Notes under the pieces: model-generated
What the model was told of the DNA's origin: nothing
The model's database searches: none
The model's input: only the letters and a program-made list of their open reading frames with translations
DNA from: a virus
DNA: 34,449 nt
Virus record (IMG/VR): IMGVR_UViG_3300047440_000214
Coordinates: 1 to 34,449 of that record
Direction: 5' to 3' (one strand)
Translations under genes and position numbers: made by a program
In this document: positions 3,800-10,907 of the stretch, piece by piece
Layout: each line of letters opens with the position of its first letter
Numbering within the stretch: position 1 is the stretch's first letter

Positions 3800-4566
3800 C
3801 GCTGCATCCTTTCGGCCTTGCCCAGCCAGTTGCTCCATGACTGCCGCCAGCCCTTGACGCTGCGGCGCGTTCCTGCCCCTTTGCCGGTCACCCAGTACTG
3901 GCGGAAGCGTTCGGCTTCGTGCAGCACCTCGGTGGGTTTCCAGCCGAGCGCCTCGGCGTCAACGCCCCAGGCTTCGGGCAGCTCCCACGTGGTGGCGAGC
4001 GCAGCGAGAGCCTTGCCGTTGAGTTGGCCAGCGTTGTTGCCATCGAAAGCGGAGGGCGGCGGTGGCGGCACGATGCGAAGCAGCGCGGCGCCTTCTTCTT
4101 CAGGATTCAGAGAATCAGGATTCAGAGAATCAGGATTCAGAGAATCAGGATTCAGGGGGTAGCAGGGGGGTCTTGATGGCGGGTCGTCTCCGGGAGTACT
4201 TTCGGAGTCAGTGCCCGACATAGAGCCGCAAATTTCTTGGAGTGGTGGCGGCTTGATGACGCTCTCTTTCTCGGTGTAGTGCGGTGTCTGGTGCTTCTTG
4301 AAGGCCAGGATCTGGATGAAGCGGCCGTCCGAATTCGTGTAGCGCACGAGAAACCCGTGTTGCTCGAGCTCGTCGAGCAGCGGCTCGACTTCGACCGAGT
4401 CGAAGCGGAACAGCTCACCCTTGATGCGCTTGGGCCGGTCTTCGAGGCGGCCTTCCTTGTCGGCCAGCGTCCACAAACCAGCGAAGCAAAGGCGGGCCCA
4501 AGGACCGCACTCGGCGAGGGATTCATTGGCGAAGAACCCCGGCTTGATGTTGCGTGCGCGTGCCAT
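3796..4566 (-). CDS. Phage replication initiator (winged-helix replisome organiser)
   Basis: The N-terminal 95 residues (MARARNIKPGFFANESLAEC onward, with ARLCFAGLWTLADKEGRLEDRP and LLDELEQHGFLVRY) match the winged-helix DNA-binding domain found in many phage and plasmid replisome organisers. The middle (about 105-160) is low-complexity and contains LNPDS repeated in tandem, then the C-terminal domain has EAERFRQYWVTGKGAGTRRSVKGW, a segment typical of these initiators. The gene follows cro in the early operon, as lambda O does. It should bind the origin and recruit host helicase. The repeats that encode LNPDS are themselves the best origin candidate in the window. Confidence 0.85.
   Translation of the reverse strand: MARARNIKPGFFANESLAECGPWARLCFAGLWTLADKEGRLEDRPKRIKGELFRFDSVEVEPLLDELEQHGFLVRYTNSDGRFIQILAFKKHQTPHYTEKESVIKPPPLQEICGSMSGTDSESTPGDDPPSRPPCYPLNPDSLNPDSLNPDSLNPEEEGAALLRIVPPPPPSAFDGNNAGQLNGKALAALATTWELPEAWGVDAEALGWKPTEVLHEAERFRQYWVTGKGAGTRRSVKGWRQSWSNWLGKAERMQR
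4101..4155. repeat. Candidate replication-origin iterons: 15-bp direct repeats inside the initiator gene
   Basis: The unit caggattcagagaat is present at 4101-4115, 4116-4130 and 4131-4145, with a 10-base partial copy to 4155. Each unit contains the dyad GATTC-AGA-GAATC. The block is AT-richer than its surroundings and lies in the linker of the replication initiator, the same position and architecture as the lambda origin inside gene O. That it works as an origin is inference; it also encodes (LNPDS)n. Confidence 0.6.
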
Positions 4567-5093: not shown

Positions 5094-5513
5094 TTGACGT
5101 CCGCTGACGTCCGCCGGCGTCCGCTGGCGTCCACAGATCGCGTCATCGACCGCCTCGACAAGGCCATGAAAGTCGTGGGGGCTTCAGGCGTTCAGCTGGC
5201 CGCGGCGATCGGAATCAAGCCGCAATCGCTCACCAATCTGCGCAGAAAACCCAAGGGCGGCATGCGAGCGGAGTTGCTCGCCTACGCTGCCGACTTCCTC
5301 CGCTGCGACCTGCACTGGCTGTGCACCGGCGAAGGCGGCGACTACGTGCGCGCGACGAACCCGGAGTTCGATCGCCTGGCGCGTGAGATCGCCGAAGGCG
5401 TCACCCGCTGGGACGAGGGTGATCGCATGAAGTTCTACACCCTGTTCACCTTGGTGAATCGGGGCGTGTGGCCTACGTTCGAAGGCGTCGAGCCAGCTCG
5501 AAACGGTAGGTGA
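5094..5513 (+). CDS. cI: CI-like phage repressor, short form without peptidase domain
   Basis: The helix-turn-helix is clear: VIDRLDKAMKVVGASGVQLA is helix 1 to 2, then AAIGIKPQSLTNLRRKPKGG carries the recognition helix, followed by DLHWLCTGEGGDY, a stretch common in small phage repressors. The only ATG (5166) would cut off the first helix, so the TTG at 5094 is preferred, though it lacks a clear Shine-Dalgarno; the start is uncertain. The protein (about 139 residues) has no S24 LexA-type cleavage domain. It therefore should not be inactivated by RecA-stimulated self-cleavage, which makes the antirepressor at 15574 the natural induction route. It is divergent from cro. Confidence 0.75.
   Translation: MTSADVRRRPLASTDRVIDRLDKAMKVVGASGVQLAAAIGIKPQSLTNLRRKPKGGMRAELLAYAADFLRCDLHWLCTGEGGDYVRATNPEFDRLAREIAEGVTRWDEGDRMKFYTLFTLVNRGVWPTFEGVEPARNGR
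5096..5135. repeat. Four tandem 10-bp repeats at the start of the repressor gene
   Basis: gacgtccgct, gacgtccgcc, ggcgtccgct and ggcgtccaca follow one another with a period of exactly one helical turn. They lie between the cro promoter region and the repressor coding region. Related GTCCGC/CGGAC elements occur at 5059-5067 and 6000-6010. This is consistent with cooperative operator sites, but may be only coding repetition if the TTG start is correct. Confidence 0.5.
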
Positions 5514-7204: not shown

Positions 7205-7441
7205 ATGCCCACCTTGAACGTCTATGTGACTCGTGATCTCAGGGCGGAAATGCGCGAGTTCGATTTGAACTGGTCGTCGATTGCAGCCGCTGCTTTCCGC
7301 AGCGCGATCGACGCCGAGAACGATGCCGTGAGAGCAAGGCCACGGTGCAAGAAGCCCAGCGAATTCGAGTGCGTCACGGCCCGGCGTGACTTGCTCGAAC
7401 AAACAAACCACCGGGACAGCGAGAACCAACATGGCTACTAA
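7205..7441 (+). CDS. Ribbon-helix-helix-like small protein, 78 aa
   Basis: The N-terminal half, MPTLNVYVTRDLRAEMREFD with NWSSIAAAAFRSAIDAE, has the strand-helix-helix spacing of CopG/Arc-type DNA-binding proteins (strand LNVYVTR, helix RDLRAEMREF, second helix SSIAAAAFRSAI). The C-terminal 35 residues are polar and run 11 bases into the next gene. It may be an autoregulator of this operon. No partner toxin is visible next to it. Confidence 0.65.
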   Translation: MPTLNVYVTRDLRAEMREFDLNWSSIAAAAFRSAIDAENDAVRARPRCKKPSEFECVTARRDLLEQTNHRDSENQHGY

Positions 7442-8315
7442 GAAAACTGAAACGAGCACCCCTGCTGAGCAGGTTTACGACTTCAAACTGCAAGAGGAGG
7501 CGATCACGTTCCATATCAAAGGCACTTCGCCTCTCCTGCTGAATCGCATGACCACGAAATCGAAGATGGTGCTGCTCGCACCGCAGAAGAAGACCACGGC
7601 CGACAAGGCTGCATCGCTCAAGCATGACCCTGTGGCCGAGTTCCGTGCCTCACCGTATCGCCTGCGCGCTGACGATGCGCCGACGCTGCTCGCGCTGCTG
7701 CCGACGATGTTCAAGCAGGCGATGGGGCTGGCAGCGCTCGACGTGCCGGGCATGAAGAAGTCGCAGGTTCTGCGCCTGACGCGCGTCGATTGGGATCGCA
7801 TCCCTGTGTGGGGCCTACCTCAATTGCACATGGCCGTCGTGCGCAATTCGGACATCAACCACACGCCCGACGTTCGCACCCGATGCATCGTTGCCAACTG
7901 GGCGACCGAGCTGACGATGTACTACTCGCCGCAACTGCTGCGCACCCAGGCCATCGCGAACCTGCTGCACTCGGCCGGCATCTCGTCAGGCATCGGCGAA
8001 TGGCGGCAAGGCAAAGGCTCCAGTTCGTTCGGTGGCTTCTGCATCTGCACGGCTGACGATGCCGAGTATCTGATGATCAAGAAACACGGCGGGCGCGCTG
8101 CGCAGCTCGCCGCAATGGAAGCGGCGGAGCCGTTCGACGACGAGGCCGAGGAGCTGATCGCGTGGTTCGAGGATGAGGTCGTCGTCAAGCGCGGTAACAA
8201 GGCCGCAGCGCGCCGTTCACCCGACAAGCACGGCGACGATGGTGTGCCGCCCGTGGTCGGTGCGACAAAGGGCGGCTATCGCGGCAACGGTAGCAGCGCG
8301 ACGGTGGCAGCATGA
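7431..8315 (+). CDS. Conserved phage protein of the recombination region, 294 aa
   Basis: The start is the ATG at 7431 (MATKKTETSTPAEQVYDFKL). The core begins ITFHIKGTSPLLLNRM and continues through FRASPYRL, LLPTMFKQAMGLAALDVPGM and a conserved-looking GISSGIGEWRQGKGSSSFGG F. This ordering (a GTSPLL strand, a helix that selects a substrate or partner, then a Gly-rich GIGEWR loop) recurs in conserved phage proteins near recombination genes. It distantly recalls ferredoxin-like RAMP proteins; that last point is an impression. It lies between the exonuclease and Bet, where other phages encode a single-strand binding or nuclease-inhibitor protein. Confidence 0.7.
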   Translation: MATKKTETSTPAEQVYDFKLQEEAITFHIKGTSPLLLNRMTTKSKMVLLAPQKKTTADKAASLKHDPVAEFRASPYRLRADDAPTLLALLPTMFKQAMGLAALDVPGMKKSQVLRLTRVDWDRIPVWGLPQLHMAVVRNSDINHTPDVRTRCIVANWATELTMYYSPQLLRTQAIANLLHSAGISSGIGEWRQGKGSSSFGGFCICTADDAEYLMIKKHGGRAAQLAAMEAAEPFDDEAEELIAWFEDEVVVKRGNKAAARRSPDKHGDDGVPPVVGATKGGYRGNGSSATVAA

Positions 8316-8815
8316 GCCCGGCTCGACGCAAGCCTGCCGACAGCGATGAGAAGCGGAGCATCCAGGCTGCGCTTGCGGAGCTCGAGCAAGGTGACTATGG
8401 CCTGACTGCCGAGGCCGTGATCGAAGCGGCACGCAAACCGTCGAGCCCACTGCACCGGCTGTTTGAGTGGGACGTCAAGCGCGCGGCCTACCAACATTGG
8501 TTGGTGCAGGCGCGCGAGGTGATCGGCACCTACAAGGTGACGACGGTCACGAGCACGACAACCTACAAGGTGCCGTTCTACGCCCACAACCCAAAGGCCC
8601 CAGCGGGCCAGCAGGGCTACGTGACCGTCGACCAGATGCGAACCGATGCAGATCTCGCGCACGAGCACCTCGTCGCCGAGTTCACCCGGGTTCGTTCGGC
8701 CCTCGATCGAGCGCGTGGCTATGCGGTGACCCTCGGCCGCTCGCAGGAGATCGACGGATTGATCGAGCAGGTCGTCGGCATTCACCAGCGGTTCGATGAC
8801 CGCAACGCGGCGTGA
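8312..8815 (+). CDS. Hypothetical phage protein, 167 aa
   Basis: Start and upstream stop overlap as ATGA. The N-terminal part is helical and acidic/basic (DEKRSIQAALAELEQGDYGL), the centre has a Thr-rich strand region (YKVTTVTSTTTYKVPFYAHN), and the C-terminal third is helical (EHLVAEFTRVRSALDRARGY). No motif or family is recognised. It is the last gene before the GGNNN array, so it marks the upstream border of that element. Confidence 0.65.
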   Translation: MSPARRKPADSDEKRSIQAALAELEQGDYGLTAEAVIEAARKPSSPLHRLFEWDVKRAAYQHWLVQAREVIGTYKVTTVTSTTTYKVPFYAHNPKAPAGQQGYVTVDQMRTDADLAHEHLVAEFTRVRSALDRARGYAVTLGRSQEIDGLIEQVVGIHQRFDDRNAA

Positions 8816-10015
8816 GGTTCTGCGATGGCACGGAAGGCAGGCAAGGGCCGGCCGGGAACGGCGCGGCATGGCATGGGGAGGAATGGATTGGTGTGGCCGG
8901 GCCGGGAGAGGCAGGCAAGGCGGGGCGCGGCGCGGTATGGCAGGGCGCTGCAGGGCGGGGTCGGGTTTGGCAAGGCAGGATAGGTTTGGCGCAGCACGGC
9001 GCGGCTTGGTGAGGGCCGGAATGGCGAGCAATGGCGAGGCCGGTTAGGTGTGACGGGGCGATGCTGGGTCAGGCACGGCCAGGGCCGGCGAGGCAGGCGG
9101 GGTGCGGTCTGTCAAGGCACTGCTTGGTCTGGCATGGCGTGATGAGGCAGGCAACGCATGGCCGGGTTCGGCGGAGCAAGTCAGGGCCGGGCATGGATAG
9201 GCAGGCATGGAAGGCGGGGTCAGGTCTGGCGCGATTGGGTCCGGCGTGGCGCGGCAGGCTGGGCCGGGCATCGATGGGCTGTGCCAGGCGTGGTCAGGTT
9301 GCGCTCGGCGGGTTCTTACCCGGCATGGCGTGGCGTGGCTGGCAGGGCTGGGGTCGATGGGGCATCGCACTGTTTGGCGCGGGTAGGCAGGCGCGAACAG
9401 GTGAAGCACGGCTAGGCCGGGATCGGTGCGGTGTGGCATTGCGCGGATGGGCAGGCAGTGATGGGCGCGGCTAGGCCGGGACTGGCGTGGAGTGTTCGGG
9501 AACGGTTCGGGTTGGCAGGCGTGATTAGGACGGGCGCAGCAAGGCATGGCGCGGCCGGGAGTGGTCGGGATGGGGCCGGTGTGGCAGGCGTGACTCGGCA
9601 ACGCTGGGCGTGGATAGGTCGGGTCGGGCAAGGCAGGTACGGCTCGGCGGGGCAACGCGGGTTCCGGCAGCGACCGGCATGGCAGGCGTGGACGGTACTG
9701 GTGTGGCAAGGCTTGGCAGTGCTAGGCAAGGCAGGCACGGCGAGGCGCTGCTTGGCAAGGCCGGGCGTGGATAGGCCGGCATGGATAGGCCGGCATGGAT
9801 GGCTCAGGAGCAGCACGGCGGGTCCGGGCGAGGCAGACGAGGTCGGACGAGGTATGGCTAGGCGAGGCCTGGCAGTGCGCGGCAAGGCATGGCAGGTTTG
9901 GATCGGCTCGGTGCAGCAAGTCTCGGAAAGGCCGGGCCTGGATAGGCTGGGCAGGCACGTCGAGGCGAGGCGAGGAATGCGATGGCAAGGCAAGGGCAGG
10001 CTGGCACGAATGCAG
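8816..10015. repeat. 1.2-kb degenerate GGNNN pentanucleotide array
   Basis: For about 1200 bases the plus strand is built from units of five starting with GG, most often GGC plus two variable bases, for example GGCAAGGCATGGCAGG at 9881-9896. The phase slips occasionally by one base (GGCAGGC). Units are not identical; only the GG spacing is kept. The plus strand is strongly G-biased. Because 5 is not a multiple of 3, all three frames on both strands are open for long stretches and give Gly/Ala/Arg/Trp-rich (plus) or Pro/Ala/Leu/Ser-rich (minus) nonsense peptides. No gene, tRNA or CRISPR is seen. A 14-bp unit (ggataggccggcat) is repeated twice near 9769-9796. The array ends about 50 bases before bet. 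Confidence 0.85.
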
Positions 10016-10067
10016 CCCCTCGGGCACCAAGGTGTTCCTGGGAGTGCGTTTTCACACGGAGGCACTT

Positions 10068-10907
10068 ATGAGCAATGAAGTAGCAGAGCGCGCCACACCG
10101 CGCGTGTCCCTGGTCGCCAAAATGGCCGGCCGATTCAACGTCGAGCCCACGAAGCTCATGGCGACGCTGAAGGCGACGGCCTTCAAAAGCGACAAGGCAA
10201 TCTCCGACGAACAGATGATGGCGCTGCTGGTTGTCGCCGACCAGTACGACCTCAACCCGTTCACGAAAGAGATCTTCGCTTTCCCCGACAGCAAGGGGGG
10301 CGGCATCGTGCCGGTGGTGAGCGTCGACGGCTGGACTCGGATCATCAACGAGCACACGCAGTTCGATGGCGTGACCTTCGAGACCACCATCGGCGACGAT
10401 GGCGCCGAGTGCACCTGCACGATCTTCCGCAAGGACCGCGCGCACCCTACCGTCATCACTGAGTATTTCGCCGAGTGCAAGCGCGGCACCGCGCCCTGGT
10501 CGTCGCACCCACGCCGCATGCTGCGCCACAAGGCGCTCATTCAATGCGCACGAGTGGCGTTCGGTTTCGCTGGTGTCTTCGACGAAGACGAGGCGCAGCG
10601 CATCGTGAAGAACATGGGCGAGGCCGAGGAAGTCGTCACCGCCGACGGCGAGATCATCACGCCGGCCGTCAAACCATCGGCCGCCGAGGCAGTCGCCGCG
10701 CGCCGAGCTGCACGCCAGAAGGCCGCAGCGCAACAAGCCGAGGTGAAGCCCGCCGACCGCAAGCCCGCCTCGGCCTTCATCGAGGCCGTCAATGCCGCGC
10801 CCGATGCCGAAGCCGCGGCCATCGTGCTCGACGAAGCGCGCAGCACGCTCACCGAGGAAGAGCAGCAGCAGGTGAGCCAGGCCTACAGCGCGAGGTGGCA
10901 GCCATGA
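10068..10907 (+). CDS. bet: Bet/RecT-family single-strand annealing protein
   Basis: The start is the ATG at 10068 after CACGGAGGCACTT; the frame upstream is open only because of the repeat array. The 279-residue product has the Bet core: DEQMMALLVVADQYDLNPFT, then KEIFAFPDSKGGGIVPVVSV and DGWTRIINEH, then HPRRMLRHKALIQCARVAFG. It binds single-stranded DNA and anneals complementary strands, working with the RecE-like nuclease at 6056. The C-terminal third is Ala/Glu-rich and flexible, as usual. The distance between nuclease and annealase, more than 3 kb with the array between, is unusual. Confidence 0.93.
   Translation: MSNEVAERATPRVSLVAKMAGRFNVEPTKLMATLKATAFKSDKAISDEQMMALLVVADQYDLNPFTKEIFAFPDSKGGGIVPVVSVDGWTRIINEHTQFDGVTFETTIGDDGAECTCTIFRKDRAHPTVITEYFAECKRGTAPWSSHPRRMLRHKALIQCARVAFGFAGVFDEDEAQRIVKNMGEAEEVVTADGEIITPAVKPSAAEAVAARRAARQKAAAQQAEVKPADRKPASAFIEAVNAAPDAEAAAIVLDEARSTLTEEEQQQVSQAYSARWQP

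Follow-up and report, generated by a model that had tools for sequence, protein, structure and literature searches.

The Viral Interference Programmable Repeat (VIPR) system, described in 2026, pairs a RAMP protein, Vipr, with guide RNAs (vrRNAs) built of alternating GGY and NN (PMC13142463). The preprint text proposes VIPR as the viral root of CRISPR and describes phages that appear to use it against rivals (PMC13142463). Published vrRNAs have 9-16 repeats, and the preprint text distinguishes seven VIPR types, accessory genes vap1-6, and some arrays interspersed with hammerheads (PMC13142463). Type II comprises the SUSP1 and P. fulva clades, whose vrRNAs are each capped by a structured 3' tail, and 'staggered arrays with overlapping vrRNAs' are mentioned as well (PMC13142463).

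Here, we analyzed a window of 34,449 nucleotides (positions 1-34,449 of IMG/VR virus record IMGVR_UViG_3300047440_000214), whose status as a virus record, together with its exonuclease and Bet genes, marks it as phage-encoded. Its array is, with a probability of roughly 0.9, the vrRNA array of a VIPR system with a mechanism as in PMC13142463. The locus shares with VIPR a predicted RAMP-fold Vipr homologue, a partner gene, an adjoining GGY/NN tandem-repeat array, its phage origin, and units of vrRNA size and, through its relatives, guide matches that skip one nucleotide at the wobble position and guides against other VIPR systems. On the other hand, it differs from the SUSP1 system in having about 20 units in 1.2 kb rather than four vrRNAs, in units that abut with only GGCA between them and no 3' tail, whereas SUSP1 units are tailed, in a dissimilar partner gene, and in a C-terminal extension of Vipr. 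We file the locus as a VIPR member that belongs neither to type II (no tails) nor to the hammerhead type (none found). The long, tail-less, GGCA-marked array may correspond to the 'staggered arrays' of the preprint, whose main text does not contain the GGCA punctuation (PMC13142463), and it is unusually long.

Class 1 CRISPR-Cas systems (type III Csm3/Cas7) have the RAMP backbone fold and a multi-guide array beside the effector gene in common with the locus. However, the window array has no direct repeats and spacers, its guides are gapped dinucleotides in a periodic scaffold, and PADLOC gave no match for the vipr, partner, or bet proteins, the three that were scanned. TIGR-Tas, too, is linked to phages, is guided by RNA, and has its guides in a tandem array; its Tas protein carries a Nop domain, whereas the window protein is a predicted RAMP without a Pfam match.

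Results

A plus-strand GGYNN array punctuated by GGCA

Within positions 8816-10015, GG recurred at a lag of five bases 2.49 times as often as expected (z = 13.3 against 500 dinucleotide-preserving shuffles), and lags of 10, 15, and 20 were also elevated over dinucleotide shuffles of this region (z of 12, 10, and 9). The excess at lag 5 was confined to the plus strand, and the rest of the window contained no comparable GG cluster on either strand. This autocorrelation check bears out the plus-strand periodicity reported in a preliminary description of this DNA, which also correctly saw that the spacing is kept while the other bases vary, as slippage of one unit would not produce. The array extends from about 8826 to about 10010-10013, leaving the ~50 bases before the bet start codon that had been reported. 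It does lie between the exonuclease and bet genes, as first described, but the vipr and partner genes intervene after the end of the exonuclease gene (Table 1).

Since the units are degenerate, Tandem Repeats Finder recovered only fragments of the array. About 76% of tokens in the window array begin with GG, and the third base of the GG tokens is A or G in ~20%, compared to 4% in most relatives. Given this looser GG and Y, some window units may have decayed. The one-base slips that had been noted are present but nonrandom, with 16 of the 22 four-base steps reading GGCA and serving mostly as punctuation. Of the 18 gaps from one GGCAGG to the next, 11 had a length of 5n+4 (p = 1.6e-4), 12 of the 15 units between GGCA marks had 9-13 repeats, and GGCAGG was present near each end of the array. 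A search of positions 8300-10200 against Rfam 15 gave no hammerhead ribozyme at E ≤ 1, only sub-threshold noise, and a promoter scan found no promoter. Two other tandem repeats occur in the window, a perfect 15-bp repeat at 4100-4155 (TCAGGATTCAGAGAA, 3.7 copies) and a 10-bp repeat at 5095-5132 (TGACGTCCGC, 3.8 copies).

Table 1. Features of the probable VIPR locus in the window
Feature	Position	Strand	Remarks
Exonuclease ORF	ends 6988		
Small ORF directly 5' of vipr	7205-7441		Weak, sub-threshold Pfam match, CcdA-like (E 0.007)
vipr, predicted Cas7/Csm3-like RAMP protein, 294 aa	7431..8315	+	Profile homology to SUSP1 Vipr, AF2 model, Foldseek, VIA
Partner gene (candidate vap), 167 aa, phrog_15946, overlaps vipr stop codon	8312..8815	+	Homologues in relatives
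Probable vrRNA array, about 18-20 head-to-tail GGYNN units, GGCA-punctuated, tail-less joints	8826..10013	+	Lag-5 signal, step parsing
First GGCAGG punctuation	8836..8841	+	
Further GGCAGG starts	8910, 8939, 8974, 9092, 9146, 9200, 9253, 9341, 9386, 9450	+	
Further GGCAGG starts, continued	9514, 9583, 9632, 9681, 9730, 9891, 9950, 9995	+	
Guide unit	8840..8909	+	NN = AA CC CG AC GC AT AT GA AT TT GT CG CG GA
Guide unit(s)	8914..8973	+	Internal GGCAGG at 8939
Guide unit, 12 repeats	8978..9037	+	NN = TA TT GC AC GC TT GA CC AT GA AT GA
Guide unit, 10 repeats	9042..9091	+	Mark at 5' side is variant GGCC
Guide unit	9096..9145	+	NN = GG GC CT AA AC TT CT AT GT GA
Guide unit	9150..9199	+	NN = AA AT CG TC GG AA AG CG AT TA
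Guide unit	9204..9252	+	Additional 4-nt step GGAA
Guide unit, 16 repeats	9257..9336	+	Partly degenerate
Guide unit, 9 repeats	9341..9385	+	
Guide unit	9390..9449	+	NN = GC CA GA AC TA CG TC GC GT AT GC TG
Guide unit	9454..9513	+	NN = AG TG GC TA CG CT GT GT CG AC TC TT
Guide unit	9518..9582	+	NN = GT TA CG GC AA AT GC CG GT CG TG CC GT
Guide unit, 9 repeats	9587..9631	+	
Guide unit, 9 repeats	9636..9680	+	
Guide unit, 9 repeats	9685..9729	+	
Guide units, 8 + 8 repeats	9734..9831	+	Flank duplicated 14-nt stretch GGCATGGATAGGCC
Guide unit, 11 repeats	9836..9890	+	
Guide unit, 11 repeats	9895..9949	+	
Last guide unit, 9 repeats	9954..9998	+	GGCAGG at 9995 closes
bet	ATG at 10068	+	

A predicted RAMP-fold homologue of Vipr near the array

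The preliminary description could put no name to such an element, yet its pattern is the one that vrRNAs of VIPR have (PMC13142463). Since GGY/NN matches these guide RNAs, we searched for a Vipr gene near the array. The product of 7431-8315 belongs to phrog_4652, of unknown function, and had no match in Pfam. When its single sequence was searched against PDB sequences, the sole match was SUSP1 Vipr (E 0.56). Profiles strengthened this match, with E 2e-7 for 6 sequences and E 6.6e-11 for 44 sequences (PDB 36pp); the other seven matches of the latter were unrelated, with E of at least 0.24, and SUSP1 Vipr was the only match below E 0.1 among 177,635 distinct PDB sequences. A comparison to SUSP1 Vipr by hhalign gave 96%, and in the SUSP1 genome the homologue of the window Vipr lies between GGT-type repeats with tails.

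For structure prediction, we used an AlphaFold (AF2) model from a 44-row alignment (pLDDT 81, pTM 0.75) instead of a single-sequence model, for which pLDDT was only 31. Foldseek matched the model to Csm3/Cas7 (E 3e-5, probability 1.00), and its matches with E ≤ 1e-3 were Csm/Cas7/Cmr RAMP complexes; in the fold search of the PDB to April 2026, the SUSP1 Vipr entry was absent among the matches listed. VIA aligned the model with Csm3 at Z 9.3 and an rmsd of 4.0 over 156 residues. Residues 187-194 form a G-loop motif, GIGEWRQG. The C-terminal extension of about 80 aa (residues about 210-294), modeled with low confidence at its end, is found mainly in the window's clade and is absent from most others. 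Together, the profiles and the model indicate that 7431-8315 encodes a predicted RAMP-fold homologue of SUSP1 Vipr.

Vipr, partner gene, and array form a conserved cassette

A scan of viral contigs for Vipr homologues gave 56 loci; 51 loci, the window included, were compared. A same-strand GGYNN array lay within 1 kb of the vipr homologue in 46 of the 51, and an opposite-strand array in none. The five remaining loci were L003, whose contig ends before the place of the array, L014, L016, L035, and L041. By eye, a stretch that resembles GTYNN repeats, a 'related consensus', and carries the same GGCA marks follows the partner gene in L016 (6081-6330) and L035 (6150-6480). Next to the vipr homologues of UmaThurman, Pipp, ODay, and Brocalys are 6-12 perfect GGY repeats. 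Almost all relatives tested had a homologue of the partner gene (hmmsearch E ≤ 1.5e-9) downstream of vipr, at a distance of 2.5 kb or less, and the window partner gene had no detectable similarity to that of SUSP1.

A genome scan revealed two cassette-bearing prophages (L064 and L065) in one Paraburkholderia adhaesiva genome. Of 398 genomes from the Paraburkholderia family, P. adhaesiva was the only one with a match, which makes the clade rare among sequenced hosts. L064 also has another short GGY cluster, at 9436-9503, beyond the recT of that prophage.

GGCA-bounded units turn over as wholes in relatives

Across 41 related loci, GGCA accounted for 319 four-nucleotide steps, compared to 10 for the next commonest. 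This preference was not built in, since our array parser charges every four-nucleotide step alike. Gaps between GGCAGG marks in these loci were of length 5n+4 in 243 of 442 cases (p = 4e-59). The relatives' units mostly had 8-14 repeats, with a mode of 9-11, and the first N after a GGCA mark was a purine in 83%. Under a strict window, 31 of 61 longer arrays started at GGCAGG and 32 of 61 ended there.

Mycobacteriophages with flanks that are 93-99% identical in their best-aligned blocks differed by whole units upstream of vipr, with one additional unit in L021 compared to L025 and two additional units in L018 compared to L024. One guide unit drifted by single dinucleotides among L018, L021, L024, L025, and L026. 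Since near-identical mycobacteriophages differ by whole units, the GGCA-bounded stretch is the evolutionary module, and it may also be the processed RNA.

Guides of relatives match rival vipr genes with a one-nucleotide skip

We decoded guides as NNxNNx and scored ~400 of them on the vipr genes that other loci carry. The top five matches under this 1-nt skip, all from relatives, paired 23/26, 17/18, 21/26, 17/20, and 18/22 bases, with per-guide E values of 1e-6 to 2e-3 that are uncorrected for the ~400 guides. After correction for 400 guides, the first match alone was clearly significant and the second was borderline. The skipped base was codon position 3 in all five, and this shared phase, which has a chance of about (1/3)^5, supports the five as a set. 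Skips of 0, 2, and 3 gave one or two matches with E < 0.02 and none below 0.002. Order-shuffled guides gave 1-5 weak vipr matches (E < 0.02) compared to 7 for the real guides; since shuffling reduces weak matches only modestly, it is the handful of strongest matches, with the codon phase they share, that carries the case for targeting. When the ~400 guides were run all-against-all on the compared loci, the excess at a 1-nt skip was slight unless limited to vipr genes.

Each of the top five guides scored lower on its own vipr than on the rival vipr. The L027 guide, for example, matched the rival gene at 17/18 and its own at 14/18, with the differences at Ser and Leu codons, in which the first two bases can change silently. 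The L064 guide falls on a VVRxADxNRTPDV motif of the window's clade and matched L065 and L003 at 21/26 and the window vipr at 19/26; L064 and L065, matched here at 21/26, share the one P. adhaesiva genome. These alignments support a 1-nt-skip code in five relatives, including L064 of the window's clade.

For the window guides, three 9-dinucleotide cores and one 8-dinucleotide core, each scanned as an exact pattern, had no target in 2.9 million viral contigs. The core matches (0, 1, and 0 for the 9-dinucleotide cores and 3 for the 8-dinucleotide core) were rejected on mismatching flanking dinucleotides. Against the relatives' vipr genes, the best per-guide E of the window guides was 0.02, out of codon phase and attributable to chance. 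One mycobacteriophage guide core that was scanned had no match, all 8 matches of the L064 guide core were judged to be chance from their flanks and gene context, and one 16-repeat L065 guide had no match in the P. adhaesiva genome at ≤3 mismatches.

Alternative explanations for the array

The array could be a true descendant of vrRNAs in which most guides have drifted and no longer work, although we consider this rather unlikely. Its loose GG starts and third bases would fit such decay, as would the lack of targets for window guides in the scans made, and its clade mates L002, L009, and L064 have arrays about as loose. However, both ORFs, vipr and partner, remain intact and conserved, the array keeps its GGCA punctuation and unit size across 1.2 kb, and it is a guide of the equally loose L064 that reads the L065 and L003 vipr genes in codon phase.

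A cis-acting recombination or annealing region for Bet or the exonuclease, as the preliminary description had offered, is very improbable and largely refuted. The position between recombination genes in the window phage speaks for it, as do exo and recT-like genes close to the cassette in L003, L064, and L065 and, for exo only, in L002. On the other hand, the cassette lies before recE/recT in L064 but after exo/recT in L065, the gene 3' of the array is phrog_3657 in L002 and a RecE-like exonuclease in L064, and UmaThurman, Brocalys, and ODay have no neighbor gene annotated as exo or recT, yet their arrays still adjoin vipr. Arrays thus go with vipr, whatever gene comes next. Since placement around exo/recT varies and the L002 array precedes phrog_3657, bet is incidental to the array.

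We give as little credence to a G-quadruplex or other structured 5' region that would control bet translation. The two-layer motif pattern proposed earlier is indeed present, with 34 non-overlapping motifs in the 1.2 kb, but only one motif is of the three-layer (G3) type and there is little folding beyond shuffles: eight of nine array units tested folded no better (z of -1.4 to +0.5), the exception being the unit at 8836 (z -3.0). In some relatives, moreover, the array lies upstream of vipr or adjoins unrelated genes. We also reject the diversifying spacer first suggested. Finally, a low-complexity spacer from biased mutation or slippage would suit G-rich, strand-asymmetric, degenerate pentamers but is already refuted by the comparative data, namely the one-strand association with a RAMP gene, the favored GGCA step, the narrow unit size, and the turnover of whole units.

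Discussion

Our reading of the array as the vrRNA array of a VIPR system is based on the RAMP fold and Vipr homology, the conserved cassette, the vrRNA-size units, their turnover, and the wobble-phased vipr matches of relatives. Transcription, Vipr binding, DNA recognition, and repression are carried over by analogy from PMC13142463. The array would be transcribed in the direction of vipr and the partner gene, and Vipr would coat either the transcripts or fragments processed from them, each about as long as one GGCA-bounded unit (9-14 GGYNN repeats). The GGY bases would anchor the RNA on Vipr and stay unpaired, and each NN would pair with 2 of every 3 target bases, the skipped base usually being the codon wobble position. 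The bound complex would repress transcription of its target, and targets in the Vipr-homologue family would include the vipr genes of rival phages. SUSP1 processing is not transferable to the window array, since its units have no SUSP1-like 3' tail.

It is possible, though we hold this only tentatively, that the locus represents a tail-less VIPR branch in which GGCA replaces the tail and marks guide boundaries, where the RNA would perhaps be cut. Whole guides might then also come, go, and be reshuffled at GGCA, so that phages would possess, in the absence of adaptation genes, a memory of their rivals that can change as in CRISPR and that covers rival vipr genes while sparing their own.

The locus and its relatives add a VIPR lineage with long guide arrays in phages of Burkholderiales and actinobacteria, and with GGCA as a simple rule of punctuation, such arrays lend themselves to automatic parsing. 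The matches of the relatives lend partly independent, sequence-only support to the 1-nt-skip code and suggest that phages direct guides against one another's vipr genes, their own gene being the poorer match. Altogether, these findings make the origin of guide repertoires without adaptation genes testable in cultured mycobacteriophages.
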